NCBI RefSeq assembly: GCF_000003605.2
Contig: NW_003118931.1
Coordinates: forward strand, 351,878-377,100
Reading direction: 5' to 3'
Origin: Saccoglossus kowalevskii
Taxonomy: Eukaryota; Hemichordata; Enteropneusta; Harrimaniidae
DNA length: 25,223 nucleotides
Shown: positions 1 to 25,223 of the stretch, in pieces
How positions within the stretch are numbered: position 1 is the first letter of the stretch
Layout: each line of letters begins with the position of its first letter
Made by a program: the position numbers and the translations under genes
The notes under the pieces: model-generated
Database searches by the model: none
Told to the model about the DNA's origin: nothing
Seen by the model: only the letters and a program-made list of their open reading frames with translations

Positions 1-63
1 TATTTTCAACTAAGATCCCACTCCGGGATACGGTTTCAATAAAGATTATTATTATTATTATAA
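1..63 (+). repeat. LINE-like 3' tail with (ATT)n
   Basis: The window opens with a short segment in which a TCAATAAAGATT polyadenylation-like motif runs straight into an (ATT)n microsatellite. Non-LTR retrotransposons of the CR1/L2 type in invertebrates often end in such a tail. Only the last few dozen bases are inside the window, so the family cannot be named. Confidence 0.5.
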
Positions 64-1382
64 TAAACTCTGGACAGCGCACTTCAATCGCAATATTCAC
101 GTACATTTCAACTGAACTCTAATAACCACGCGTTTGAGTTCACGCACTGATATTTAAATTCGAGCCACCCAGCTTGACGCAAATCAATATAGTTACTTGT
201 CATGTGTTCAAAAAATCTTTCAACTCTCACAAATACCATGAACGCGAAGAGCTAACTGGGGGTTAACTGAAAGAGAACGTCTTTTTTGGAGAAAAAACAC
301 GTCAGTACAAGATTATGTGTACAAGGTTAGCTTTATAGAATGTACATGATCGCTTAACTCTGTGTTTTTTAATAATCATGTCGCATGTGAAACGCAGGAG
401 ACATTTTAGTTCGTCCATTTCTTGTTTACCGACATTTTGTCTGGAATGCGACACAGACAAAGATTAAACATTACTGATAACACGGTTACTTCTTTTTTAG
501 TAACCGTGCTGATAACAACCAAGAGGCTCGAACCAGGAAGGCTGGGATATTTTAAACTTCGTAAATAACATTCTTTTCAAGCTTAGACTTTATTCAAGTG
601 TAATAATACGCAACAACAATTCGTTTACAGCATTGGTTTTATTGAAGTTTTTAATGCTTTTCGGCTTCACAGTGAATTATTTTAGCGTCATATTTGAAAT
701 AGCGCGCTCGATAAAAGATGTCGGACGGGAAAATTGGGGTCTGTAAAAATGTTTGTTGGTTCAGTCAGGCAATGTGTGGACCAAAAAATCGCCCACTATT
801 TGAAACATCGCCCATGGGCGGGGTTTAGGATGGGCGGGGTATCAGCCAAATCCGGTAGTTTTTATACAGTCTATGTATGCTTCTTTTTTTTTATTTTTTA
901 TTTTACAATTGACAATTAAATGATTTAAATAGAAACCATGACATATACTCACCATTAATGGGTCTCTGACTGTCACAGTATTCTCCTTTGTCTTGAACGT
1001 GGGGCCGGTAAATAGATTCAACCTCTTACCTCCAAGCTCATCATATATGGTCTGCGTAAATGAACGCAGGTCAGGGGGACATCTTATCTGTATTTTTAAT
1101 TAAATTTGATTTAGAGGAGTTATTTCTACTTTAGTTACCTTCATTTTCAGGTAGGTCACATGTTAATAATTAGTAAATGTTAATATTACGCATTGTGTTA
1201 TTGAAAATTATATGTTGTTACATAGTAGGGTCCATCAAGTACACGAGCACTGTAAAAACATACCTGGGTTATGTGTGAGGCATTAAAGAATTGTAATGTA
1301 TACTCCAGTATACCGTAGACTCTAATCCATACGTTCCAAAACCATTTGCCATTAAATAAACCAAGTTAGGCTTCTGTTTGTC
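64..1382. other. Non-coding stretch with no recognisable gene
   Basis: No credible exon was seen on either strand. The one open frame of note (734-919) lies in a GGGCGG-rich repeat-like patch ending in poly-T and does not look coding. The only clear structure is the perfect hairpin at 481-508, listed separately. The 3' UTR of the minus-strand gene presumably occupies part of the right end. I saw no canonical AATAAA for it within the first 300 bases downstream. Confidence 0.5.
474..517. repeat. Perfect 10-bp hairpin flanked by direct repeats
   Basis: CACGGTTACT (481-490) and AGTAACCGTG (499-508) are perfect inverted arms around an 8-base T-rich loop. The flanks repeat: CTGATAACA occurs at 474-482 and again at 509-517, the last two bases of the first copy overlapping the arm. 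This looks like a residual or minimal transposon hairpin with a target-site duplication. TTTTTTAGTAACCGTG recurs exactly at 3386-3401. Confidence 0.55.
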
Positions 1383-2487
1383 CTACAAATGTGCCATGGC
1401 TTCCAGAGATTTCTGAACAAAATCTGCAGGGCATTCCAAATCCAATTGTTTTACAATCATCTTGAACAGTACATCAACTGCTGTCAGTAACTCTGATGAA
1501 TTCAAGTCTTCAAATGACTTCATCACATCATGGAGTCTTGAATCTATATTATCAGTTTGATCCTCAAATGGGTCAATGTTGTAATGCTGTTCAGCTAAAT
1601 GAAGTTTAATGAACTTTGATTTCAAATGAGCTGTCTTTCGTTGAACTGACTTCCCTGGTAAAATAAAGAAAACATCCAAATTCATTGTTTACCAAATTCA
1701 CATAACAATATGAATGAACTTCACAGTAACCCTGATAGTAACACTGCATAGTATTTGCCCAGTTAATAGCTGGGTAAAAAAAAAAATATAATTTTAAACT
1801 TTTCTGTAATTAAACACATTTTGCAAATACTGCTGCTAGTTATTGTTGTTAAACACTTACAGAATCGTGGCTCTGGCATGTTTCCAACATGTTCATGTTT
1901 ATGTTTCCAGAACTGTTCGGACAAATCTTTCCCCCACTCTACCCCCATATCTGGTCGAAAGTATGAAATATACTCAATGAGTCTCTTTTCCTCTTCTTTG
2001 CTCCAACCGTATGAAATTAAAAAGAAGAAGATATTATAGAATAATACAATGTATTTAAATTTTCCTAAGACTTGCAGCTCGCTTACAGTGGTTGGGACAA
2101 AATAATATTTAGCAATTTAATGTAGAATGCACATCAATCAACAAGCAGTTATTATTGTATATTAAATATCCACAACACATTGTAATATTCTGAACTCAAT
2201 TTTTTTAATTCCTGAGTGTCGCATTTGTTTTCCAAATATTTATTGAATAACTTCAGAAAGAAACCAATTTTTATTTTTGCAATTTTGTTTTGGGAACACA
2301 GCTTATCTAAGCAATCTCATTTCTTCATTTATACAACTAAAAACGCCAGTATATTGTTTAAATTGCAGTTGCATACTAAAAAAATGAAAATAAGCCGGGG
2401 GAAAACGAATAAAAAAAATAACAACATGCGAGTGTGTACATGTACTCACCTTGCCGCGATTAGCTGTTCCACATCCTGTTGATGCAT
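1383..2487 (-). CDS. Unrecognised 149-residue protein, three exons
   Basis: The model joins exons 2487-2450, 2000-1861 and 1654-1383 (minus strand). Donors AAG|GTGAGT and TCT|GTAAGT and acceptors GGAG|C and TTTTACCAG|GG join in phases 2 and 1 with one open frame throughout, which strongly supports a real gene. The protein starts MHQQDVEQLIAA, continues with a charged helical stretch (KEEEKRLIEYI, about 14-24), then a Trp/His-rich middle (EWGKDLSEQFWKHKHEH) and RKTAHLKSKF (about 65-74), and ends in an acidic, Leu-rich helical half. The middle resembles a Myb/SANT-type helical domain in its Trp and basic spacing, but I do not recognise the family. The start has A at -3. An upstream ORF in the same frame ends 24 bases before it. 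The first acceptor is the weakest joint of the model. Confidence 0.65.
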
Positions 2488-2511
2488 GTTGCTGTACAAT
2501 GTTGTTAATGT

Positions 2512-2646
2512 CTAAGTTAACAGTACTCTTGATTTTCCCCGCTTCTCTGGAGTCTTCCCACTCGACGAACTACGATGATTTTTAGACTTTTGACCCCCTT
2601 TTTTTACCGGTGTCATCGGTGGTGATAACATGATGTTTGTCGACAT
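2512..2646 (-). other. In-frame upstream ORF, basic Ser/Lys-rich, 44 codons
   Basis: This ATG (A at -3) opens a 44-codon frame ending in TAG. It is in the same frame as the 149-residue protein whose ATG is at 2487. The product is rich in Lys, Arg, Ser, Thr and Pro (for example SPPMTPVKKGG, SSSSGKTPEKRGKSR), like a disordered nuclear-localisation tail. As read, it is an upstream ORF in the 5' leader. Loss or readthrough of the single TAG would instead give the downstream protein a basic N-terminal extension. Which is true cannot be told from DNA alone. Confidence 0.4.
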
Positions 2647-2719
2647 CGTCAGGGGATATCGACAGTCGGCCGGGCCAAATCGCTTCACTACTTGAAATTG
2701 TCTAAACACGCATCACTAT

Positions 2720-3468
2720 ATTGGCTAAAAACTACTATAAACCGACTACAAAACTATTGCTAAACTACATAACTAATTCTGAAAGTATCAGCAATGTCTA
2801 CATTATGATGGTCAGGATCAAAACAGTAGCACAAGTGAATGTTTACATCGCCATATTTAAAGAGGTCTGACACGACCTACACCGGAAGACCATAATATGA
2901 CCTCGGGTAAACAACTAACCACGTACTTTCTCGCGTGCATTCAGCACCGAATAAATAAAAATGCATACTAATTACGCAACTTTGTCATGGCAAAAACGTA
3001 TGAAAACTGTTTGAGCAATATTGCCAATAGTACAGTACAGTGCCCATTTACAATATATGAGAAACTTGTTCATTGCAACACCGCCGTAAACGAGAAAAGT
3101 GCAGAGTCTCGCCACGATGCCCGCCATAGTCGGCAATTATTCATACCGGAAAAAGCGAGTTATCAAACACAGACCTGTATATTTTTTACATTTGCAACAT
3201 TTATGAAGCATTTAAAATAAAACAGCACGTTTTTGCTAGTATTAACAACTTTAAATGCTGAAATTCATGTTTTTTTTCTACCTGATGAATTATTCATGTA
3301 TGTTAAAAACGTCGGAAAAAGACCAATCACATCATGTGACACCCCCCCCCCCCGGAAAAGAACATGGTTTGTTTCCTAACAGTATTTTTTTAGTAACCGT
3401 GGTTGAATGAACTGTTTAAAGAAACAATCCTATCAGAAACATCTACCTAGTTTATTCAGGTAAGCACG
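2720..3468. other. Intergenic region between divergent genes, no gene supported
   Basis: This lies between the 5' end of the minus-strand gene and repeat copy A. It should hold the promoter of the minus gene and perhaps that of the plus-strand gene. An ATG with G at -3 and +4 at 2987 opens a 77-codon frame, but there is no strong donor and no family resemblance, so it is not called. A run of 12 C is at 3342-3353. A strong donor-like CAG|GTAAGC is at 3459, but its upstream frames do not fit the phase of the exon at 4836. Confidence 0.4.
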
Positions 3469-4091
3469 CAGGGTCCTGAACATGGAAAATTGACAAAAAA
3501 TGGGGGCTGGACTATGTCTTGGACAAGCCCTGCAAAAAAAAAGCGAAAACTAACAACATGCAGATTGAACTGCGACACGGAAATGAATGGCAAATGAAAA
3601 AATGCAACGGAAATAAATGAACAATATGCAACATTAGAAGTATAACAAAAATTATTTATTGCCTATTATATTGTGACAAATAAACCAAAAATAATATAAA
3701 TTTATAATGAGGAATCATTTGAATTAGGATTTCCCCGCCGACAAGCGTGCCCAATACTCATGAACACAAAATGAACTAAAATGTCAGAGGTTAAACTGCG
3801 TAAAATTATTTCTGTCATGATCAACTGTCGTACAAAATTTACACAGTAAAAATTACGAAAATTCATACTTCTCCGATCTCTATTTGTATGTTCATTGCCA
3901 TCTTCGTCAATGACTCTGCTACAATGGCACGCAATGCTTTTGTTTACAGTCTGTCATCTTTGACCTTTAAGCATCTGCTTTACTGATTGGCTAAGAATGA
4001 CGTCACTACTATTGTTTCATCATAAAGGTCAAGTCAACGGATATCTTGGTGGGATTGAAATAGGATGATTTTTGTTTTTTCTCAACGACAG

Positions 4092-4235
4092 AAGAATGAT
4101 TTTCATGACAGAAATGCAATAGCTGTGATGAAAGATGGTAAAAAAGTTGGCAGTCTTCAGCGTGACATTGCAATATTGCTGCCCCCAGTTATGGATTCGC
4201 AAGCTGCTACCAAATATTTTATAAAGCCAAAATAA
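4092..4235 (+). pseudogene. HIRAN half-domain ORF in repeat copy A
   Basis: A 47-codon open frame runs from an acceptor-like site (TTTTTTCTCAACGACAG|) to TAA. The product contains FHDRNAIAVMKDGKKVG and, further on, RDIA, LL and PVMDS. This matches the C-terminal half of HIRAN domains, which typically read N-x-x-D-x-NAIAV, then DG and V-G-H/Y-L, then a helix ending in a P-x-x-D-like motif, as in HLTF. HIRAN domains bind DNA 3' ends or unusual DNA structures and occur in SNF2-family and nuclease proteins. The N-terminal strands of the domain are missing here and were not found just upstream, so this is a single exon or a remnant. Whether it is expressed is unknown. Confidence 0.6.
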
Positions 4236-4522
4236 TGTGATTTCAACCTCTCTCCCAGTTACAGGCTGCTACAATATTTGCAATATTGGTTCTACCGGTA
4301 CTGTTCATGGCGCTTAAGCCAAACAAGTCCGACACTTGCTTCACTGCTTTTCATATACTGGAAGATTTTCTTGAATCATTTCTGAGGAAGCACAAACTAA
4401 ATGGCCTATTTCAAAGAAAGAACTATAGTTTCTGCTTTAATACACATTTTTGTTGACTTGCTGACTGTTATGATTCTGATAAAAAAAAATCTTGAAAAAT
4501 ACATGTTAATTACGTAAACAGT

Positions 4523-4593
4523 GGTGAACGTGCTGTCCTGAAGGCAAAACACGAAATAATGTATTTTGTCGTCACAGCTATTTTGTGTTCACC
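4523..4593 (+). repeat. Branched hairpin at 3' end of repeat copy A
   Basis: Outer arms GGTGAAC and GTTCACC enclose an inner stem CACGAAATA / TATTTTGTG (one G-T pair) and a degenerate small stem. The equivalent in copy B (7834-7903) folds the same way. Confidence 0.55.
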
Positions 4594-4835
4594 CTACCTT
4601 AGTTTTACGCAATTGACATATATTTTTCAAGAATTTTTATCAGAATCACAACACACTGCAACTGTTAATACAACAAACAAATAACACTGTACCTGCTGAA
4701 AAGCTTCTATGGAGAGATGAAATGAATGGGGGAAAAAAAAAACAATACCAGCAGGCGGGGTGTTTGTGTTTTTGTATACATGTAGTATGATCAAGATATG
4801 TTAAAAATAAAGTAATTTGATGCATTTATTCTCAG

Positions 4836-7800
4836 GGAGAAGATGGAGTGAGCAATGTTAGTAAACGACAATGTCACGGACTCTCTTATTCAAGCACTGC
4901 CTTCAAAGAGGTCAATCACCCAGTGCAATCCTATCAAGAAAAACAACCAATAGATGTTGTCACACATGCACCAGAACAAATGGAATGTATGCAAAGTGAA
5001 GAAAATTCTTCGTATAACAACAATATTTTACAAAGTTCATCTCGGGAACTTAATAAAGATGAAATACAATTTTTACAGGTATTCAACAACATGGTATCAA
5101 TATCATGTGTATTTATTCTGCTGCAACAAGTTATAGACCCTGTATATATGTAAATGTTACATATCATTAGAATTATGACTTCTATTATGCATTTCTTGAC
5201 ACCCCATCAGAACAGTATAAAATGCCCAGTGCTAACATGACATGATTTTTGCTTTGTTCATGTAGGATATGAATATGGAAAGCAACGATTACTGGTGTGC
5301 ACCAATGTCTAATCTATCTAATGCATTGCGTATGCACGAGGATGTAGAGGAGGCACGTATGAGAATGGAATCTGACTACACACCTAATACAGCACAGTAT
5401 ATAACCACTCCAGCTGATAACATTCCACCCTTTGTAGGGTAAGATACTCTTATACCATACTTCCTGATCTAAGCCCAAGGGCTTCAACATGTAAAATGAA
5501 GAAAAGTAAGGGACGGGCTTATAATCTAGGACCACCTCAGAAAATATGATTTGTGGAGCCGATCATTGTAACGTCTTACTTCTTTCATTCGCCATGCCGG
5601 GCTTGGAGGGGATATTGTTTTTTTGTCAAAAAAAAAGTGATGCAGGTGGTCATTGATTTCCACAACACTTTTACAATGAGGAAATAAACATGTTTATAAA
5701 AATACACATATTTTATTACATTATGATTTACATACAGTCTGAATTTGCGGTGTAAAAATGGCTAGGGGTCTGTAGAAAAAAAGTCAAAAGCAAGATCTTT
5801 ATCATTATCTTTGCTGTGGGATGTTATCGATTGTACGAAAACTATCCATGCAAGGCAAATTTTCGCCATTATGTTTTTCAGCAAGATTTGACCTGAAACA
5901 ACGTCCTTTGACCTAAAAGGTCAAGTCTTTCATTAACCAATCAAAATGCTGTGTCATGCTGACCAAGTCTTCCAATTATTAAAAATGTTATGCAATGCGG
6001 AAGTGAATTCCTGCAATGTTAAAATGCAATCTGATTTCTACAAAAGAACATTGATTTGTTTACCCTAAAAACTCGTGATTCACAATTTTCGAAAGATAAC
6101 TGAGTGTAGAGGAAGTATTTAAACACCTTTCACGGTCGCCAACAGGTCACGTTGAAGAATCTGTCACGATCTGGAAAAGTAAAACAATGACCAGGTTTCA
6201 CAAACCAAACTACCGTGCTATGAAAGGACCTTTAACACGTATATTTTTATAAATGTCGTCAACACTTATACTTATACTCGAGAGGGACTTAAAAACATGG
6301 AAAAAAAACGCAGAACACTATTATGAACAGAGCTAAGATGTAAAACTAAGTGGAAACAAATGCATTCAACTTTATTTTAAAAGGAACATGTAAAAGTGAT
6401 CTGTCCATGGACATAAAAAAATTTGTTTTTGGCATCAGTACCAATCTGTTTTATAAATCTCAAATTACAACAAACGCACAGGAGTCAAGAAAAAATACTA
6501 GGAGTGAAAAATTATAAGTTAAAATAAAGCAAGGTCAACATAAAAAAGCCCAGGGTCCTGAACATGGAAAATTGACAAAAAATAGGGGTGGGCGTTTGCC
6601 AGGATATCCCCGGCAAAATGAACGAAAATTTACAACACGCAGATCGAACTGTGGCAGGGAATAGAACGGCAAATGAAAACATGCAACAAAAATAAATGAA
6701 CAATATGCAACATTAGAAGTAAAACAAAACTAATGTATTGCTTATAATGTATCAAATAAACCAGAAATAATAAAAATCGACAGTGAGGAATCATTTGAAT
6801 TAGGATTTTCCCGCCGACAAACACGCCCAATAAGCGTGAACTCAAAATGAATTATAATGTCGGGGCTTAAACTGCGTAAAATGATTTCCGGTCTCGACAA
6901 ATTACTAATCAACTGTCATACAAGATCAATAATAATTTACAAATTTACACAGTAAAAATTCATAGCTGTTTGAAAAAACTTCTCAGATCTTTATTTGTAC
7001 ATTCATTTCCATCTTCATCAAACTTAAACCCACAAAGTCCAAGTTGGACTTAGCACTTTCAATCCACGGATTTCGCAGTCTGTCAGCTTGGCACTTTTCA
7101 TTCATGTCTAATCACAATACAGAGACGAGAAAAATGGGGCCACTCTGCTGCGATGGCACACGATGCTTTTGTTTACAGTCTGGCAATCATCTTTGACCTT
7201 TATGCATCTGCTTTACTGATTGGCTAAGAATGACATCACTACTAGTATTTTATCATAAAGGTCAAATCGTGACATTGCTTTCTTATCAGACTCGACGCTT
7301 ATCAGTCATGGTGAGAGTTATCATTTAGCAAGTTCCGGTGGTTGGAATGTCTCACTATATTGGTATCACGATGGGCTTGAAATAGGAAGTGTTTTTTTTT
7401 ATCAAATGACAGAAGAATAGTTTTCATGACAGAAATGCAATAGCAGTGATGAAAGATGGTAAAAAAGTTGGCAGTCTTCGGTGTGATATTGCAAAATTGC
7501 TGGCCCCAGTTATGGATTCGCAAGCTGCTACCAAATATTTTATAAAGCCAAAATAACGTGATTTCAACCACTTTCCCAGGTACGAGTTGCTACAATATTG
7601 GTTTCATTGTCGACAACGCTAAAGCCAAACGAGTGCGATACTTAGTGGCTCTCTTTATACGATTTGCTTGAATCGTTTCTAAGGAAGCACAAACCAAACA
7701 GCCGGTCCTTTTTAGGGCCTCAACATATTTTAAAAAGAGAACTACCGTTTCTGCTTTAATATATATTTTTATAGACTTGCTGACTGTTATGATTCTGAAA

Positions 7801-8680
7801 AAAGAAAATCTTGAAAAATAAATGTAAATCAGCGGTGAACGTGCTGCCCTGAAGGCAGAAAGCGAAATACCTATTTTGCTGTCACAGCTATTTCGCGTTC
7901 ACCCCTTGTTTTACACAATTTAAAAAATGTTTATAAGCATCACGACTGACTTCAAGAAAGTCAACTGTTAATACAACCACAGTCAACGAATAGAAAATAG
8001 TTTTTTTGTGTGTAGAAAAAGACCCCCTGGGCGTGTGCCTGAATATGACCTCAACTTCTTTATTGTGTCAAAAGTGGGGGGTGGGCGTTTTCCCCCGGCA
8101 TGGGCTCTTACTCTGATAAGTACGGTAATTTTACAATTATGAGAGTCATATTTACTCTTATTAGTTGGACAAATCTAAATCATCTAAATGACATGTGTAT
8201 CACTGATCAAAATAAGTCTTATTTTTCTGTCGCTACCACAATTATTCAAACAATATTGTAATGTTGATAGTTATTACCAAACATGTATAACATTTGCTCT
8301 GACAGGTACATGTAATGATGTTGGTGAAATAGATCCAACAATCATCAAGAATTTTAGTAATGACAGTAATAAGACAAACAATGCAATTTATGGTTTATGT
8401 GAGCATATATTAGAAATCTTTGAGTAATCACAGATTGTATCATGATGCATTATACTGTCTACCATCATCTGTTTGTTTTCTAGGTATGATCAAAATATGC
8501 CGGGACGTATACGTTGTTACTGTAAACCCATCTTAGGATCCATAAATAGCTGGCTGTAGAGTTTCTCATCTACAACTATAATATCACTCTCTGTATGAAA
8601 CTTCTTATTGTTCTTTTCTTTTATATTTTAGTTACCGGTATGGAGAGAATAGTAAATGTTACTTTGTATCTGATGAATAA
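4836..8680 (+). CDS. Unrecognised plus-strand gene, 3' portion, at least three coding exons
   Basis: Exon a is 4836-5078 (acceptor TTATTCTCAG, donor TTTTTACAG|GTATTC, 81 open codons, phase 0). Exon b is 5266-5438 (acceptor TGTTCATGTAG, donor GTAGG|GTAAGA, ending phase 2). The most likely last exon is 8632-8680 (acceptor TTATATTTTAG), adding YRYGENSKCYFVSDE and TAA nine bases before an AATAAA. The 154 residues seen are polar and low in hydrophobic blocks (exon a: SSTAFKEVNHP, QSEENSSYNN; exon b: ESNDYWCAPM, DVEEARMRMESDY), suggesting a largely disordered intracellular protein. I do not recognise the family. The 5' exons were not found, although exon a also has internal Met codons that could be starts. 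An alternative terminal exon at 8484 is possible. The large last intron holds inserted repeats, including HIRAN copy B. Confidence 0.5.
5445..5614. repeat. Repeat-like patch with GGGCTTATAATC motif
   Basis: The intron just after exon b has the motifs CTAAGCCC (5471) and GGGCTTATAATC (5515-5526), which resemble the ATTATAAGCCC motifs near 24190-24210. Such motifs occur in degenerate DNA transposon remnants. The assignment is weak. Confidence 0.3.
5615..6265 (+). repeat. Interspersed repeat X, copy 1
   Basis: This segment aligns, in inverted orientation, with 24277-25100. Matching blocks in order are GTCATTGATTTC, ACATAC-GTCTGAATTT-CGGTG, GGGTCTGT, TTTGACCTGAA, CCTTTGACCTAA, TTCATTAACCAAT, GCGGAAGTG, GAAGTATTTAAA, TTTCACGG-CGCCAACA and ACCAGGTTTCAC. 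No open frame persists in either copy, so it is a non-coding element or a decayed one. It also holds an everted pair of AGGTCA-type half sites (TGACCTAAAAGGTCA). Confidence 0.75.
7413..7556 (+). pseudogene. HIRAN half-domain ORF in repeat copy B
   Basis: The 47-codon frame runs from an acceptor-like ATCAAATGACAG| to the same TAA as copy A. By eye it differs from copy A at 8 of 144 bases with no indel. Six differences change the amino acid and two are silent. The motif FHDRNAIAVMKDGKKVG is identical, and the following helix reads DIAKLLAPVMDS, a slightly better fit to HIRAN than copy A. One changed position turns a conserved-type Arg into Cys (CGT to TGT). The ORF is open, but nothing shows that it is translated. 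Confidence 0.6.
7834..7903 (+). repeat. Three-stem hairpin at 3' end of repeat copy B
   Basis: Outer arms GGTGAACG (7834-7841) and CGTTCACC (7896-7903) enclose two stems: CTGCC-CTGAA-GGCAG (7844-7858) and GCGAAATA (7862-7869) paired with TATTTCGC (7889-7896). Relative to copy A, one base pair has changed from A-T to G-C on both sides of the stem. Confidence 0.6.
8306..8427 (+). other. Unassigned ORF segment after an acceptor-like site
   Basis: After TTTGCTCTGACAG|GT, one frame reads TCNDVGEIDPTII and continues, Asn-rich, to EHILEIFE and a stop. It needs a preceding exon ending in phase 1. Exon b of the surrounding gene ends in phase 2, so it cannot be joined to it without hitting a stop. It may be chance in AT-rich DNA, or a fragment of another gene. 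Confidence 0.15.
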
Positions 8681-10165: not shown

Positions 10166-10573
10166 GTTGATTTTCTGTTAATTAAAAAAACAGGAGTTTT
10201 CTAAGCTTTCTTTGATTTAATTTTCATTGTCTTATTCTTTGTGTTCTACTTTTTTTTTGCTGTTTTCCAGGATTTTTTTGACTGAAATAGTAAATTAAGC
10301 AAAAAAGATAGAAGTAGATAAACAGTATTAAGAATAAACAAGTCATCTTAAGATGTGTCAGATGTGATTATAGTTGGCTATGAATTGTGTAATGTATAAA
10401 AGTTGAAAATCTAAAGTTTGTTGCTCAAATTTGCACCAATTTTTAAAAAAATCACAATCAATTGAATATGGAAGTTCAATTGAGTCAATATTAAATAGCA
10501 AATACATGAACTATATATTAAACAAAAATTCAAAATTAATTAAATATTCAAGTTCTCATTAAGTTTGAAAGTC
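10166..10573. other. Very AT-rich stretch, nothing recognised
   Basis: Low-complexity AT-rich sequence between repeat blocks. Some TTAAATAGCAAATA and AATTAATTAAATATTCAAGTT phrases suggest further decayed units of the neighbouring repeat. Confidence 0.35.
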
Positions 10574-10850
10574 AATATAGCATAGCACAGATTACATATT
10601 GGCAGATCAAGTAAGTCTATACCAACATTGTTCTCATTAGGACTATTAGATATCAACCAAAATTCATTAAATATGCAAATGAGCTCATTAATTAAATTGA
10701 AACTGAATATTGCATAGCATATATCTTATATTGACAAATCAAGTCTCTACCAAGTTTGGTCTGATTTGGACTATTAGTTCACAAGATATTAAGAATTCAA
10801 ATTAATAATTGAATATGCAAATTAGCTCATTAATTGATTCCTTGAAAAAT
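10574..10850 (+). repeat. Two diverged tandem units, period about 132 bp
   Basis: AATATAGCATAGC at 10574 and AATATTGCATAGC at 10706 begin two units. They share, in order, CAAATCAAGT/CAGATCAAGT, TCTATACCAA/TCTCTACCAA, GGACTATTAG, and ATATGCAAAT(G/T)AGCTCATTAATT. Each unit contains the octamer ATGCAAAT. Confidence 0.6.
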
Positions 10851-10852
10851 TA

Positions 10853-11450
10853 AATCAATGTGCATCTGTACCAGTGGTCACTCTGTCTTTGTACCAAGTC
10901 TCAGCAAAATCGGGCCAGGTATCTCAGAGAAATGATGATAGACACACCCAAAAAAACTTGATTTTGACAAATGGCCGCCAGGCAGCCATATGTGATCAAA
11001 TCAGGAAATAAATCCATGTGAATATGTATACCTCCTCACTGTGTCTTTGTACCTAGTATCATTGAAATCAGTCAAGGTATCTTTGAAAAATATCAATGTG
11101 CAGACAAAAACCATGATTAACAAATCGGCCATATTTTATCACTTTAAAAAAATAAAACAACGTACATCTGTATGGGTGGTCGCTTTGTCTTTGTAACAAG
11201 TCTCAACAAAATCGGTCAAGCCATCTCTGAGAAGTGACGATGGGCACACGAGGAACTGAATTTCGGCATTAAAATGGCCCCCAGTCGGCCATATTTGATC
11301 GAATCGGAAAATAAATTGACGTGCACATGCGTGGTTGACCACTGTGTCTTTGTACCAAGTTTCAAAAAAATCGGTTTAGCCATCTCCGAGAAATCACTCC
11401 GGACGTTATGGCGAAGGCGAAACTACAAGCCCCCTCCCGTCGGGGGCAAA
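10853..11450 (+). repeat. Four diverged tandem modules, about 150 bp each
   Basis: Units start near 10853, 11009, 11153 and 11312. Each shares TGTCTTTGTA(C/A)CAAGT, CAAAATCGG-CAAG, ATCTC-GAGAAATGA and GGCCATAT-TGATC-AATC-GGAAAATAAA. The array ends with GCCCCCTCCCGTCGGGGGC (11429-11447), a perfect 6-bp hairpin. A related fragment (GGCCAGCAGTCGGCCATATTT) is near 21358-21378. This is a common type of marine-invertebrate interspersed repeat. Confidence 0.7.
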
Positions 11451-14465: not shown

Positions 14466-14710
14466 TCTCCGTCCTATACTTGCATACAGTCTCTTGTTTA
14501 TTTTTGTTTGTTTTTTTCAATAACATATGGGAGTGTATAAATGACGAATGCCGGGTTACCGCGAATCGGAAATAAACAAGATTTCGCGGTAACCAGACTT
14601 TCGCAGTAAATGGCGTTTACCATTTACACACTCCCATGACATTTTATTTTATTGAAAAAACACCAACAAAAAACAGTAGTCTAAGACTGTATGCAAGTCG
14701 ATCTCCGTCC
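14466..14710. mobile_element. Foldback MITE with 9-bp target-site duplication
   Basis: The 227-bp element at 14475-14701 is almost one long inverted repeat. Its left end reads TATACTTGCATACAGTCT and its right end AGACTGTATGCAAGTCGA. The arms continue with TTTTTTTCAATAA / TTATTGAAAAAA and GGGAGTGT / ACACTCCC, and the inner GGTTACCGCGAA / TTCGCGGTAACC leaves a short loop. It is bounded by identical TCTCCGTCC at 14466-14474 and 14702-14710. A 9-bp duplication is typical of Mutator-like elements, although hAT elements (8 bp) are a close alternative. It has no coding capacity, so it would depend on a transposase encoded elsewhere. Confidence 0.85.
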
Positions 14711-16859: not shown

Positions 16860-19302
16860 ATGAAAACTGTCAACACGCTCCTTGGGATGATGTTTTCAAT
16901 GTGGATGAGCACGATTCTCGTTTGCTCGGTGCCAGTGACCGTACAATCAGACGAAGAAAGGGGAGTTACGACTCTGAGCACACCGAGCGGTACATCAGAA
17001 AGCCCATTCGCCGAATCAATGCAACCTGAAGATGAAATCTTTTTGGAATCATCGAATACGAATGAGATGACTGTAAGTATAACTCATATATTAGTATATC
17101 ACCCTGTCTTTATTATGTACATGCACACACACTTGTAAATAATAAGGTATAATACTTACAATTGTAAACGGGAGATATATTTAAAAGCCATATAAATCTA
17201 ATCTAACCTCAATCTAACCTCAGTCAAGTTCATGTTAAGCGATCTCCCACATCTCACATCTCAAAGTTTCTAAATCATATTATATGGTTTGTCGATTAGA
17301 TCTGTGTTTTATGTTATTGTCCGGTCAGGCTGAACCTCAAACAATGCGAGCACAAGTGTGACAAAATACTAGTAATATATTTGTATATATAATATTCAAA
17401 TATGACATATAAATAATAGTCAAGTTTTAGTTGTTTTCATTGAAATTAAAATAACAAACAATCAAAAATGACATATACTAGTAACTGATTTAACTCGACC
17501 TTCATTTTGTGTATTAGACAACTTTTAAACAATTGTTCTAGAAGAAACACTCAATACATGCTTAAAAGATTTGTTTACATAAATAAAATGTTATATTTTA
17601 TTTCCTTTCAAAAACTCAAATAAAAACGTTTCAATTTGTGTCAATCATCCCGGGAAATGTGTTGTTAAGCCAATTAGGTCTTGCCATATTGCACAATTGT
17701 TCGGTCACAGAGTCATATACTCTTATTGCTGTCACGAATTATTACAAAATTCTGATTAATGTTATTAGTTTCATAAAATAATAGGTCCGAAATAATCCAT
17801 TTCCATTTTTGTTTTCAGAATATGTGCCGACAATACAAATACTTGTCCGAATTACTATTCATGTATTATTTTTGAAACAAAAACATGTGATACTTTGCGA
17901 GAGAAACTTCTTCGACAGTGACGGATATTGCGAATATACCGCAACTGTTTCATTTGTACAAATTTCTATACATGTATATATCAATGATTCCAATTGAGTA
18001 CACGAGACAATACAGCTAAACTTTTACCAATACCTAGTAGCCACCTGCCATGGATCAAACACCATGTATGTACGAGAGCATGGGTCATGCCGCGTGGCGT
18101 TGCATCCCGGCGTAACACAGAGCATCACTTGTATAATTTGAGATTTATTTTATAAATGAGTTTTTTTTTATTTTTGTACAGATGGAAGAACTGTTAAAGT
18201 CGTGGCTAATAATGGCAAATGGTGCCTATTGTCATGGTAGTTCAATCCTTAGTAAGTATCATCAAGCAATTTTGAAATTCAAATTGGAAGTTTATTTTTG
18301 TTCAAACAGTTATTTGCAGTTGAATCACTCTTTTGAGTTTAATTTTACTGATACTTCCGTTTTACTACACAGCTGCGCCACGTGTGGCATCAGTACGGCG
18401 TACCTTGAGACAGGGCAAAGTGATATTAAGACTTCACGCCGAGACGGATGACGTCAATTATTTCGTGACGTATCCATCATCCAACGGCACGTACAGTTAC
18501 GTACTGAGAAGTCGTGACAAGTCGCATATACCGCTGCACGACGTACCGTTCCACGCAGTGGTCTTAGTTGAAGTGTTTGCTATCAGACGGTGTAACTATA
18601 AACTCTACTGGAGTAAGTCGACGTATTTCGAAATGAAGGTCAATGAAGGTGAGCACATACTGTAGCTATGCAGGGGGGTGAATGTTGTCAATCCGTAGTA
18701 AATTAGGCGGCCGCGAAAATTGTTGATACAGTGACATTGTTTTTTGACAGACAAGAGTGTCACTTTACTGAAATATTAAAGGGAATGTATTAATTGTTCT
18801 ACAGATGAAAGGGTTACCATAATAACGCCAGCAGCGCCCTCACCTTGTGAAAGTAAGTCACTTACGTATTACTTCAATCTCGATCGGAAAATAATAGACT
18901 GCACCCGAGTAAAAATCATTGAAACATAGAGTGTATTATTTACAGATGACTTTACCCCAGTATTTCTAAATGTGATGTTATTTGGTATATCTCGTTATAG
19001 TTCCCAGAGCGGAGATGGCACTGGAGGGTAAAATGAGCGAAAATTCTGTTAGCGTGACGGTGAAACCCGAACCGAGCATCGAACACTACTTGTTCACCGT
19101 GAAGAACAGAGGGCTGCGTCACCAGTCTCGCATAAGCAATGGTCCAGAAGGCTTCGGAATAAGTGGATTGACCATTAGTGATCTGCTACCAAGGATGTTA
19201 TATAGTATCAGTATACTCGGTGAATCGCAATGTATCGGCAAAACATTTCATGGAGCACCCGTGTTTTTCTTTGCGAGGACCATCGGCGCACGAATGATAT
19301 GA
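16860..19302 (+). CDS. Secreted protein with two FN3-like domains, 302 residues
   Basis: Five coding exons splice cleanly: 16860-17072, 18182-18251, 18373-18648, 18805-18852 and 19001-19302. All introns are GT-AG, with phases 0, 1, 1, 1. The start is the first ATG after the TATA box, with A at -3. Residues 1-30 form a signal peptide (MKTVNTLLGMMF, hydrophobic to VQS). An acidic Ser/Thr-rich stretch follows, then a short exon (MEELLKSWLIMANGAYCHG). Exon 3 codes one beta-rich domain (about 95-186), exon 4 a Pro-rich linker with Cys, and exon 5 a second (LLPRMLYSISILGES, then PVFFFARTIG). Phase 1 on both sides of exon 3 is typical of shuffled FN3 domains. There are four Cys after the signal and no transmembrane segment. 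The second domain faintly recalls the FN3 domains of the NDNF family; this is inference only. The function is unknown, perhaps an extracellular ligand or binding protein. Confidence 0.72.
17073..18181 (+). other. First intron of the secreted-protein gene, with a possible cryptic exon
   Basis: The intron is about 1.1 kb and AT-rich. A good acceptor (TTTTTGTTTTCAG|) at 17818 precedes a Cys-containing frame (17820-17921; C at intervals in CADNTNTCPNYYSC) that breaks at a TGA. Another frame continues with CERNFFDSDGYCEY. From exon 1, which ends in phase 0, including this exon would add 18 codons and then a stop. It could be a decayed Cys-rich exon or a premature-stop cassette exon. It is not part of the coding model. 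Confidence 0.25.
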
Positions 19303-19699: not shown

Positions 19700-20160
19700 C
19701 GGCCGAACTATATCCATGGTCCATGTTTAAGTCCGGGGGGCAGTTAATACATAGCTGGGATCGGTAGGGAGTGATCAAAAGTGTGACAATTTTTTTATAT
19801 CTGGATAGTGGCAAAATCTATACCCATATTTATACCAAAGTACCATTTCTGTCATCACTGTTTATTCAAAATAGAACAGTTACCGTATTTACTCTATTAG
19901 AAGAGCATATCTAATAGAAGCACATCTCAGCAAACAGTTGCATTGTATATTGATTTATTAAAATACGCATTTTGGCCATAGAAACACCTGTCACACAAGA
20001 GCACATTATTAACACAAATAGGAAAATTATTACCGATATTTATACCTATCTTGACCAGAAATAAGACCGATACTTATACCTAAAATCCAAAAAACAAGAC
20101 CCATCTTGGGGGCACGTTTCCATTAGGAAAGTTCTATGTATTGCCACCCCGGGGGTTTAA
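19700..20160. repeat. Decayed interspersed repeats
   Basis: It contains ACCGTATTTACTCTATTAG, TCTAATAGAAGCACATCTC and repeated ATTTATACC(T/A) phrases (19825, 20037, 20072), flanked by CCGGGGGGC and CCCCGGGGG. ACCGTATT-CTCTATTAGA-type blocks occur in degenerate DNA-transposon repeats of marine invertebrates. No coding frame was seen. Confidence 0.4.
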
Positions 20161-20331
20161 GTGAGATACGCTTCATTGATATTATTGAAATGGTGTATAC
20201 AAGAATACCAGTCTTGGTTCAATAACACTTTTGTGGGTCTATCATAGACCATATGCGATAGGCTGTGATTGTGTATGATCTGGCCACACATAAACAGTAA
20301 CTTGTACATAAACCTATGTTTATGTTTACAG

Positions 20332-20824
20332 AAATATCACACTAGTTTGGGCTCCCGGATTAACCCATCTTCTCAGCGTGAATCAGTTTGTCCAGTGGCA
20401 CAACACAGGAACCCGCCGTCTACAGATACCTGCAGGGAAATACTTGTTTAATTCTACATAGTGAACTACTACACAGCCAGACAGCTGAACGACATAACCA
20501 TACCATACACCCTTAAATACCCACCACTAGAGGGCGCAATTTGTACAAGTGAAAACCAGGCACAAGAGCCATCTTAACAGCAATATTGTACAAGTATTAT
20601 TGTTGGTATTACTAATTGTAAGTGTTCAAAGTCACACATTTGCCAAACGGCTCCATGCATCATCTGCAAGTCGATTTCATACATCAGTAATACAATATGC
20701 ATGATAATGATACAAAGTTTGAACGAAAACAACTTGTTCATTTCTGAGAAATAGTTCTGAACATGTTTAAGGTACAGCCTACTCATAAATTTAAAAACCC
20801 AGAATTTATTCATTTTGCAATAAA
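20332..20824 (+). other. Possible 3' UTR exon of the secreted-protein gene
   Basis: The FN3 coding exon is followed, only four bases after its TGA, by a strong donor (AATAG|GTAAGC at 19306). The first good downstream acceptor is TATGTTTACAG| at 20331. If used, this exon would be 3' UTR and could end after the AATAAA at 20819-20824. A donor this close to the stop would not trigger decay. One frame of the exon is open to 20457 but does not match the phase. Confidence 0.35.
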
Positions 20825-21530
20825 CTGTACTCCAAGGCAATATAAGGATATTGACCTAAAAAAAGTTGGGGGTCACCAGCCTTTTTTTCGAGAAATTGAT
20901 GGTTGTATTTTAGTGGAAAGTCGCCATTTTGACACTATTATAACACTTACCATAGGATCCTATGGCAGAGATATTACGCAATATCTCAAACTCTAGCCCG
21001 GTGACATAGGCTGAATAAATCATATATTGTTAATGATGGAATACTTTTTGTTGTTCTGAATTATTCAAAAAATCTGGGTTTTAAAAAGTGTAAAAAAATG
21101 CATTTTTTCTTTAACATTGTGTTCTATGGAATTGTTCTAAAAATAGCAATTTTTAAAAAATATTAGGACAAGTTTCTCAAAAAGCACAACTTTAACACAC
21201 AAAATAATGGTATTTCATTGTACCGTAGGACATTAGCTTCATGATTGTACATAATAAACTAATGAATATTGCGATGAGATTTATGACCAATTTTGTCAAA
21301 AATTATGACTAGGCTTCTACCTCAAGTATCTGAAGTTTGCAAATTTAAGGACCAAAATGGCCAGCAGTCGGCCATATTTATAAAAAAAAATAGCTCCAGA
21401 CAGACCTTGAATAGTCTGATTCAGTACAAAGCAGGGACTTTCCAAACAAGTGAATCGTCAGTTTACTTTGGAGGTAAACTGAACACTTTCACAAGCACGT
21501 GTTCATACACGTCCCATATTTAATTATGAA
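20760..21530. repeat. Likely decayed repeats, no gene
   Basis: 20830-20990 is of the type CACCAGCCTTTTTTTCGAG ... TCCTATGGCAGAGATATTA, with CATAGGATCCTATG as a palindrome at about 20952-20965. 21340-21380 carries GGACCAAAATGGCCAGC and TCGGCCATATTT, related to the modules at 10853-11450. Open frames here (77 and 76 codons) look incidental. Confidence 0.35.
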
Positions 21531-21540
21531 TATTAAACGT

Positions 21541-23005
21541 TTCTGGTCACTCACCCATGTTTAGTAAACGTGTAATATTTTAGTGATTTGGTATAACCAC
21601 CCACAGAGGAAGCGTATACTAATTGATCACTATATACACCATAGATGTTAAACTGGTCCAAATCTTGTGGCACATTTCAGGGAGGTCATTCCTCAATTCA
21701 TACTTTGAATACAGAATACAGTTTTCTAGTACTATACCAATACAACCTGATGCACTTCTCACTTTAAAGATCTGGTTTTTATTTGACAATTTGTACTGGT
21801 CAATGCACTTTTCAACCATGATTAATCAAAATAAACTTTATTATGAAAATAATTAGTGTAAATTTTTCTTCTCGAAAACCTGTACTACAGCCTTAATCTT
21901 TTCCCCACCAGACTTTCTCGCCCCAATTCTTTCTTATATTCTTCAATATTTCATGAAATAAATTGTAATTGTGGAGACGAGACAAAATTTGAGTCAATTT
22001 TCTGTTTTTACTCAAAAAATTTGGCTATTTTTGTCCCAGTTTTCTGAAGGAAAGTGCAGACTATAAACAGGAGCATTTTGTGAAATTGTGATGAAAAGAG
22101 GAACTGGTGGTGAAAAGGTTAATAATAAATTCATGTTTATAAACATTTAGAGTGACTCCTTTCAAAAACAAGCAAATATTCTGAATCAATACATCTTTTA
22201 TTTCATTGAAGCATTATTTTGGTTGATACAACCCAGATTCTTAAAACCACACCTGAATATTTTACACAATGATAAGACTCTTAGAGCACAATAAATAGAG
22301 TATATCAAAAATAATAAAATACGCTTCTGTGGAAATAATTTAATAAAATCTGTTCAGAAAAAAAAAAGAAGGGAGAGTTTCATAATATGAATGCAGCAAG
22401 ACTTAAATATGGTGGTGGTGGTACTCTAGTCAAACACCGATTCTACTTTCAACAAAGATAGTGAATTGTACATGTTTTAATGTAACTAGGAAGCTCAATG
22501 TCTCAAGAATAAAATAATTTAAAATGTATCATTAAGTGTGGCTAATCTGAGACTATTGTAATATTTTTTCAATCGAGGAATACAAAGCGCAGAAATTGAT
22601 CTTAGAAATTGAAATAGAGAGAAGAGTTGTGTAAAATTGTGTTACAAACCTTTCACCTAAGCCAAGATGCAATGCAGTTATTAGGATTGAATAAAATGTA
22701 GTTTTATGTCTATTAAATTAAAGAAAGAATACTTGATAAATATATTAAAGAAGTAGGGGGATGCACATTATTGGATCCATATCATCAACCTGCTCAGGAG
22801 GAATTGACTGCTAATCAAGACTATTCTAAAACAATTATTGTGTATATGGTGTGAAATATTTGATGCAACAAGTGGGACAAGGTCAGGGAAAGGACAAAAT
22901 TCATGGTGAATTGAATACATATTATCATTGGATGGATGCCACATGAGTTATCAGTTTACACCTCGGTGGTGCAGTCTTCAAGCATTGGACAGAACAGAGT
23001 TGAGA
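21541..23005. other. Non-coding stretch; probably includes the ABCF2 3' UTR
   Basis: AT-rich DNA with no exon-like frame. The right part is downstream of the ABCF2 stop codon and should include its 3' UTR. A minus-strand AATAAA (plus TTTATT) lies near 22197-22202, about 800 bases after the stop. A short GGT run is near 22411. Confidence 0.4.
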
Positions 23006-23006
23006 T

Positions 23007-23916
23007 TTATTTTGCCTTGGCTTTTGCTTTCAAAACTTTGGCTCGCAAATTATCCTTGTAGCCTAGGATATCTCCTTTCCATTTTGTCACTTTCTGTTTT
23101 TGACACACCCAGATTTCTTTAGCAACCTGCAAATGAATAGAAGTATATAAGATTCCGAAAATGAATGACAACTTACAGAGTGAGTTTACACTGCAAGTAA
23201 ACAGTCTTTGGTGATGCATGTACCAGTAGTTTTACAAGTACAAATTCAAAGCACAGATTATTCCTTCATGAAAGTTTTTTGGATGTAAAGATACAGTAAC
23301 TATAATTTTATCTGTGAAACATGGTTACAAAATAATTCAATACTGTAAATAAATTATTCACTGGGTTTTAATGTCGCTTTTTTCACTGATAAGTGAAATC
23401 TGCCAAATTAAATTCATGTGAGCATGCAAAATGGTATTAGAACACATTGTTTTCCTGACAAATTAACTTCAAAACCAATGAATATTCCTAAAAACATCAA
23501 AATCAACTAGTTTTATAGTACCGGTAATAAGTTTTTACATTCAGTAAAATTTTGACCCCTACCCCAAAATAGTGCGATTAGAAATGTGTTCATTTCTATA
23601 AATAAATGTTGAAACAATATCGTATATTCTGCCTGATTGATAATAGACAATTCAGAGAAAAAGATGTTGGGGCGAAAATCCTTTCTGTGAAAGGAGTTAA
23701 AACTTTTCTTACCTGTCCTATGAGTCTAAAGTCGTGACTAACTAGAACCATTCCACCTTCAAAGTTATTTATAGCATCTGCCAATGCATCTATGGTCTCA
23801 ATGTCTAAATGATTGGTAGGTTCATCAAGTAGCAGTAGATGGGGAGTTTGCGATGATATCCATGCAAATATAACTCTACTACGCTGACCATCCGAGAGAT
23901 TGCGCATTGGACATAC
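23007..23916 (-). CDS. ABCF2: ATP-binding cassette sub-family F member 2, last two exons (3' partial)
   Basis: The penultimate exon 23916-23713 (68 codons, phase 0) has acceptor TATTCGAAATAG| and donor GGACAG|GTAAGA. It encodes the end of the second nucleotide-binding domain: signature LSDGQ, Walker B with D-loop [12 protein letters not shown], and the switch His in LVSHD. The final exon 23126-23007 (39 codons plus TAA) carries [13 protein letters not shown] and [10 protein letters not shown], ending in a KAKAKAK tail. Both match metazoan ABCF2 almost residue for residue, whereas ABCF1 and ABCF3 differ in the tail. ABCF proteins are soluble twin-ATPase proteins without membrane domains, related to yeast Arb1 and linked to ribosome biogenesis or recycling. 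The tail is shorter than in vertebrates. All upstream exons lie beyond the right edge; none was found in 23917-25223. Confidence 0.97.
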
Positions 23917-24276
23917 CTATTTCGAATAGAGAGAGAGATTGCAAAGTCTGTTATACAACCCTGTAGCAAAAATCAGACTCAAATATCTTAATCTTTTATA
24001 CCTGCATAGCAAGCTAGACCCCCCCTCCCGAATTTAACTTGAACAACAAACTATAAAAGCACATGTATACTTCAAAAAATAACTATTCAAACATTTGCAC
24101 TTCCCACATCCTAGTGAACAGTACTTAAATATGTGGGAGGGGATATTTCCCAAAATGATAATCATTACTGTACTTAGAGTACAAGCCCCTCCCCGATTAT
24201 AAGCCCTGCCCTCTGTTTTTGGACATTTAACGAGTCGAGGGCATCCCCGAGCATAGGCCCAGGGTGTTTTTACCGG
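23917..24276. repeat. Intronic DNA of ABCF2 with decayed repeat
   Basis: This is part of the next upstream intron of ABCF2. CTCCCCGATTATAAGCCC and CCCGAGCATAGGCCCAGGG (24190-24262) are decayed transposon-like motifs adjoining repeat X copy 2. No exon was seen. Confidence 0.4.
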
Positions 24277-25100
24277 GCGTTGACATTTATTAAAATATGC
24301 ATGTAAAAAGTGCATTTCAAAGTGCATTTCATTGCATAAAAATCATGATTGGTACGGTAGTTTGGTTCCAGCTTTTACGAGAAAACTTGCATTAATTTCA
24401 GAGTGCACGGCATGTTTTCTATTCTGTTATTCACTCGGGATCAACACAGATGTTGCAATACTGAAATAATCCATATATCTTTTTAGTAGTTTTCCAAGCG
24501 GCAAAAATGTGATCGTCAAGTCGTGAAACCTGGTCACTATCTTAGTTTTACTTTTCCGAACAACCTTTTCCATTGAGACTATCGAGAATGTGGTGTGAAC
24601 GAGCAAACTATTCTTCGACATGACTTGTTGGCGGCCGTGAAAAGTTTAAATACTTCCCACACCTCATTGCGAATCAACAGCTTTTAGGGAAAAAAAATCA
24701 CCGTTGTCGAAATCAGTGTTAACAGATCGCATTTTAACATTGCGGTAATACACTTCCGCAATGCGTTGATAAAAATACTTCGTCAATAATCGGAAAACAT
24801 TTTCATTTTCATTGGGTAACGAAAGACGGGACCCGTTAGGTCAAAGGAAGTTGTTCAGGTCAAATTATGATGAATCCATGGCGGAAATAGCTTTGTATCG
24901 AGAGTTTGCGCACGATCTTGCCTTTGACCGTTTTCCCACAGACCCTACCCATTTTTGCACCGTAAATTCAGACCGTATGTGAACCGCTTTGTAATAGAAT
25001 TTTTGTTTTTTGTTCATATTTGTTTGTTCATTCTAAAAAGTGTCATTGAAATCAATGACAGCTCGTTTCGCATCTTTGTTTTCTCAAAAAGACGTACCGT
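24277..25100 (-). repeat. Interspersed repeat X, copy 2 (inverted)
   Basis: The reverse complement aligns with 5615-6265 across most of its length, with an extra ~70 bases around 24530-24600 absent from copy 1. It lies in an ABCF2 intron, opposite in orientation to copy 1 and therefore in the same sense as ABCF2. No conserved ORF was found. The far right of the window (25100-25223) did not match copy 1 and may be a different element. Confidence 0.75.
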
Positions 25101-25111
25101 TAAAGTCCTAT

Positions 25112-25129
25112 TATAAACCGCGGTTTATA
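25112..25129. repeat. Perfect 18-bp palindrome
   Basis: TATAAACCGCGGTTTATA is a perfect palindrome just outside the end of repeat X copy 2. Its role is unknown; it may be a transposon-internal or terminal structure. Confidence 0.6.
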
Positions 25130-25223
25130 TTACAATGTATCAATTTAAAAATTGGGATCAAAAGCTCAAGTTCGGGGTGCGGTTTCTATTACGTACATAT
25201 TGCAATCACTAAATGGGCGTGGT

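Follow-up and report, generated by a model that had tools for sequence, protein, structure and literature searches.

HIRAN remnants in a repeated element

Two copies of a repeat, A and B2, carry remnants of a HIRAN domain in the window (the whole stretch of 25,223 nucleotides of Saccoglossus kowalevskii DNA that was analysed). Sequence comparison supports the view that these remnants are homologous to HIRAN domains of the HLTF/Rad5 type. We consider it probable that the repeat is a non-autonomous TIR DNA transposon, of which A and B2 are old copies, and that both carry a dead, captured HLTF-like HIRAN fragment. We infer that the copies arose by TIR transposition, that the fragment was captured rather than inherited by descent, and that it is without function. 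The element would hold about 80 HIRAN-derived codons of the HLTF/Rad5 type, with the last quarter of the domain cut off. In Pack-TIR fashion, it would have taken up some 250 bp of a gene; a transposase supplied from another locus would then have mobilised it in trans, and the HIRAN fragment may have been copied along as a passenger. Neither a parental HLTF gene nor a transposase domain was seen, which counts against capture.

Identity and extent of the HIRAN remnants

Stop-free frames of 46 codons, each followed by TAA, occur at positions 4095-4235 (copy A) and 7416-7556 (copy B2), and FHDRNAIAVMKDGKKVG is common to their products. The preliminary description had reported a 47-codon frame with a shared motif in each copy; the frames were found where it had placed them, and their length is 46 codons plus a stop. 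As there are 179 stop-free stretches of at least 46 codons in the six frames of the window, an open frame by itself is weak evidence. The 46-residue products reach 25.4 bits (A, E 1.2e-5) and 27.7 bits (B2, E 2.4e-6) with the HIRAN profile (Pfam PF08797, length 96), for which the gathering cut-off is 24.7 bits. The HIRAN identity proposed earlier, with an HMM search as its check, is thus borne out for both products. HIRAN is the sole Pfam family listed for each of them, over profile positions 35-71 of 96. The score of copy A varies with context, being 25.0 bits in a read-through of 444 residues and 22.8 bits, under the cut-off, in one of 1817 residues. Across the scans of A and B2 that exceed the cut-off, HIRAN E-values range from 1.7e-5 to 9.8e-8.

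When the product of copy A was compared with PDB by phmmer (E <=10), all five distinct sequences matched were HLTF chains, with E-values from 0.25 to 0.33. The HIRAN frame of B2 also matched HLTF chains in five of five sequences, over query residues 20-84 and with an E-value of 7.6e-4. The D-x-NAI-x-V and VG-L...MD motifs of the remnant are also present in the HLTF alignment.

The remnant is longer in B2 than in A. In a six-frame translation of 5450-8133 with X at stops, the match covers profile positions 5-70 of 96, at window positions 7329-7526 (32.2 bits, E 9.8e-8), and HIRAN is the sole Pfam match at E <=1. The remnant of B2 was annotated by Pfam and phmmer at 7308-7556 on the plus strand, from the ATG at 7308 to the TAA at 7554-7556. 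Two in-frame stops lie within its HIRAN match (TAG 7383 and TGA 7407), and another (TAG 7326) is found just 5′ of it. In copy A, most of the upstream part of the domain has been lost through a gap of roughly 90 nt and a 1-nt shift. Its remnant (4077-4235, plus strand; Pfam PF08797 and phmmer) covers profile positions 27-70 at 4077-4205 in a frame that is stop-free from 4059 and ends with the TAA at 4233-4235. Profile positions 72-96, the last quarter of the domain, were unmatched in A and in B2 in the Pfam scans, and neither copy has a complete HIRAN domain in one open frame.

The frame had been described as an intact one that codes for the C-terminal half of the domain. A partial HIRAN domain is indeed present, but the 46-residue match represents the middle of the domain (35-71), and the upstream half still exists in B2 in decayed form. 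The frame cannot be called intact, as its upstream half carries stops in B2 and the substitutions in the 46 codons look neutral. A splice acceptor in front of the half-domain, as would be expected for exon capture (a T-rich tract and CAG before AAGAAT), was considered. It was dropped for an uninterrupted frame, since the first half of HIRAN is matched by the upstream frame of B2. The B2 remnant was modelled with AlphaFold, but the model (mean pLDDT 48.7, pTM 0.33) was uninformative and too poor for a fold search.

Decay of the HIRAN frame

Both copies contain TTGAAATAGGA, the TAG of which is an in-frame stop of the HIRAN frame of B2. In copy A, this TAG is in the frame that corresponds to that of B2 before the 1-nt shift. 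This common stop is most simply explained by a frame that had been broken before the two copies diverged from their ancestor. Within the 46 codons, A and B2 show 8 base differences in 7 codons. Six of the eight are nonsynonymous, while 76% would be expected to be so if changes were random, and selection on the frame is thus unsupported by this comparison of two copies. With 8 random substitutions, the frame still stays open 81% of the time.

The HIRAN frame falls in the best-conserved stretch of the element, with 134 of 141 columns identical. Such a peak was found in only 2 of 5000 site shuffles and, with blocks of 20 preserved, in 171 of 5000 shuffles. Simple neutral drift does not predict this conservation peak over the HIRAN frame. 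Since synonymous positions do not show more change than others (2 synonymous and 6 nonsynonymous differences, which are small counts), the peak is explained by gene conversion or chance no less well than by protein constraint.

Repeat copies, segment X and element ends

Copies A (3444-4686) and B2 (6544-8127), both on the plus strand, were delimited by BLASTN and nhmmer self-comparison. A and B2 themselves served to build the nhmmer profile, by which A was placed in two pieces. In BLASTN, the copies match in three blocks of 76-89% identity within 3469-4674 and 6551-7977. Over 1198 gap-free columns they are 80.6% identical, which includes a poorly aligned tail; when the last 60 columns are omitted, identity is 82.7%. 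These two are the HIRAN-bearing copies in the window, and they are found in the same orientation, 3.3 kb apart. A conserved block of 82 nt is present upstream of the remnant, at 3954-4035 in A (ATTGG and TGACGTCA) and at 7187-7268 in B2 (ATTGG and TGACATCA), where it ends about 40 nt before the ATG at 7308. The two blocks are 93% identical. Judged by motif name, ATTGG and the CRE-like motif are presumably promoter-like. The right part of copy A contains an imperfect palindrome (4458-4661, 68%), which was detected by self-comparison.

Copy A has a TIR-like left end, beginning with TACC at 3444, but its right terminus is unrecognisable. Copy B2 has a TIR-like right end, ...AAGTACGGTA, at 8127, but its outermost left tip is eroded or absent. 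The lack of a recognisable right terminus in A and of a clear left tip in B2 counts against the TIR reading. Directly upstream of B2, nhmmer and the comparison of ends define segment X (5453-6544, plus strand), which has a TIR-like left end with TACC at 5453. Segment X matches positions 25093-24518 on the minus strand (nhmmer, E 5.6e-57). This match belongs to a third element, c3, at 24148-25113 on the minus strand, with approximate limits that may pass the window edge. Its left part is X-like and its right end is B2-like, the latter matching the B2 end at 8017-8130 (nhmmer, E 6.8e-7). In nhmmer, c3 was without the HIRAN part. Segment X may be a truncated element of its own or, together with B2, form a composite element of 2.7 kb that ends at 8127, with X as its left part. 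The location inside an interspersed repeat, as claimed in the preliminary description, is supported within the window by the two HIRAN-bearing copies and by the third, related element, which has the opposite orientation.

A 5′-TACC end is common to A (left, 3444), X (left, 5453) and B2 (right, reversed, 8127). We compared ends of 32 bases, using 2000 random positions of the window as control. The score of the left end of A against the reversed right end of B2 was reached by 12 of the 2000 random positions, that of the left end of X against the same B2 end by 17, and that of the right ends of B2 and c3 by only one. The remaining pairs are at background level (A left with X left, 248 of 2000; X left with c3 right, 233; A left with c3 right, 1663). 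Three of the six pairs are therefore above background, and neither HIRAN copy has both ends clean. Inspection by eye of the sequence beside 5453 and 8127 revealed no target-site duplication. Both subfamilies (X/c3 and A/B2) have TGACCT/AGGTCA half-sites close to ATTGG or CCAAT, at 5889-5950, 7187-7268 and 24804-24863. They perhaps represent a common promoter or protein-binding site, as far as the sequence suggests.

Coding content of the elements and their surroundings

Translations with X at stops were scanned against Pfam for the entire plus strand and for 1-3443, 3440-4773, 5450-8133 and 20001-25223 of the minus strand. The E-value threshold was 1 for the elements and 0.01 for the rest. None of the six frames of either element shows a transposase domain (E <=1), and neither do the other frames scanned. 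A non-autonomous element need not encode a transposase. Helicase or RING domains were also not detected in the frames scanned, in which HIRAN is the only family above its cut-off. Between the copies, two exon-like frames (4837-5079 and 5267-5438), flanked by AG and GT, were recognised by eye. A and B2 therefore seem to lie within introns of a host gene.

Alternative explanations

Instead of having been captured, the HIRAN remnant might be the beginning of a gene that belongs to the element, with A and B2 being internally deleted derivatives which have kept the promoter, the start and a stump. We regard this as possible but doubtful. It would fit the position of ATG 7308 in B2, about 40 nt past the conserved ATTGG/CRE-like block, and the 3′ truncation in both copies, an arrangement that an internal deletion would produce. 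However, the open-access literature that pairs HIRAN with transposable elements, to the extent of its available text, provides no link between HIRAN and transposons. In addition, the frames scanned are devoid of a transposase domain and the related element c3 does not have the HIRAN part. It is rather unlikely that an autonomous animal DNA-transposon lineage encodes a HIRAN protein used for transposition or for steering excision-site repair, with A and B2 as its deletion derivatives. Between capture and descent from a gene of the element itself, we lean towards capture.

A further alternative does without a transposon, assuming that a HIRAN/HLTF pseudogene fragment was duplicated locally, together with its flanks, in a single event. 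Two copies in the same orientation and only 3.3 kb apart, with no more than these two counted in the window, are what such an event would leave. Nevertheless, we consider it unlikely, as homology ends on both sides of the copies, exon-like frames (identified by eye) lie between them, and the third, inverted relative c3 has the terminal sequence of B2. That the element makes a functional, selected HIRAN peptide is highly improbable. The conservation peak over the HIRAN frame is in its favour, but the upstream half contains stops, the last quarter is missing, the substitution pattern is neutral, and a frame that stays open 81% of the time after 8 random changes does not call for selection. Least probable of all is a mere chance likeness to HIRAN, even though the match of copy A is marginal (25.4 versus 24.7 bits, 22.8 in the longer frame, PDB E 0.25) and the matched stretches have only 36-66 residues. 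Adding the upstream half in the same frame lifts the B2 match to E 9.8e-8, and for both queries no PDB molecule other than HLTF is listed at E <=10, with five of five sequences each.

Relation to known systems

In a survey of animal Pack-TIRs, 370 such elements were reported from 100 genomes, with a median captured length of 224 bp and 13.4% exonic (PMC8277862). The elements described here resemble them in having a gene-derived insert of about 250 bp, TIR-like ends, and no transposase that was found. They differ in that the survey required 90% identity to the parental copy, while A and B2 differ from each other by about 19%. A parental copy, a target-site duplication and paired TIRs in one copy were not seen for A and B2. 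HLTF and HIRAN are absent from the main text of the survey (PMC8277862).

With the HIRAN domain of HLTF/Rad5 (PF08797), the remnants share the sequence match over profile positions 5-70 of 96. Unlike in HLTF/Rad5, the frame in A and B2 is broken, its last quarter is unmatched, it is not accompanied by helicase or RING domains in the frames scanned, and it is located inside a repeat. Outside HLTF/Rad5, HIRAN is also described for a protein of European chub iridovirus, which is viral (PMC6563503, in the text available). Stand-alone HIRAN proteins likewise occur outside HLTF/Rad5, but are from bacteria or phages. Protein-pattern searches of viral and prokaryotic contigs returned 4, 25 (viral) and 53 (prokaryote) stretches, without a confirmed relative, and two DNA patterns had no matches in the viral contigs. 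As these contig collections are viral or prokaryotic, the lack of relatives says little about animals. The open-access literature on HIRAN with transposase, DNA transposons or transposable elements, within its available text, describes no transposon that carries HIRAN, and no paper in the open-access literature searched names HIRAN together with Repbase.

It has been proposed that HIRAN, among other domains, might stem from restriction-modification systems or comparable bacterial mobile DNA (PMC2292703), and the module is reported to bind DNA 3′ ends (PMC10813616), according to the available text of both papers. If the fragment was captured, this would be another animal transposon that bears a gene fragment, with a DNA-repair gene as its likely source, which is of modest interest. 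Descent from the element's own gene would be more interesting: should a complete HIRAN gene exist in an autonomous relative, DNA transposition would be tied to a module for binding DNA 3′ ends, a link that the available text of the papers does not report.

Other features of the window

Rfam and tRNA scans of the window found nothing, and a tandem-repeat scan revealed one array of 25 nt (24307-24331). Pfam matches below cut-off were D123 (E 0.021) and, at about 23.6-23.9 kb on the minus strand, ABC_tran and AAA_21. The latter region contains a frame with NLSDGQRSR... (23596-23907, minus strand), for which ABC_tran reaches 22.5 bits (cut-off 25); judging by eye, we take it to be an exon of an ABCF/GCN20-type ATPase. 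Exon-like frames at 18333-19302 (plus strand) have no Pfam match at E 0.01, and we assume a resemblance to NDNF. A frame of 100 aa at 1383-1685 (minus strand), which is exon-like by eye, also has no Pfam match at E 0.01. Degenerate repeats, 63-73% identical and spaced every 140-300 nt or so, occur at 10380-11397 and have ATGGCC...GGCCATAT motifs. Finally, an imperfect palindrome of 221 nt (14478-14698, 67.5%) is possibly a further foldback or MITE-like element.
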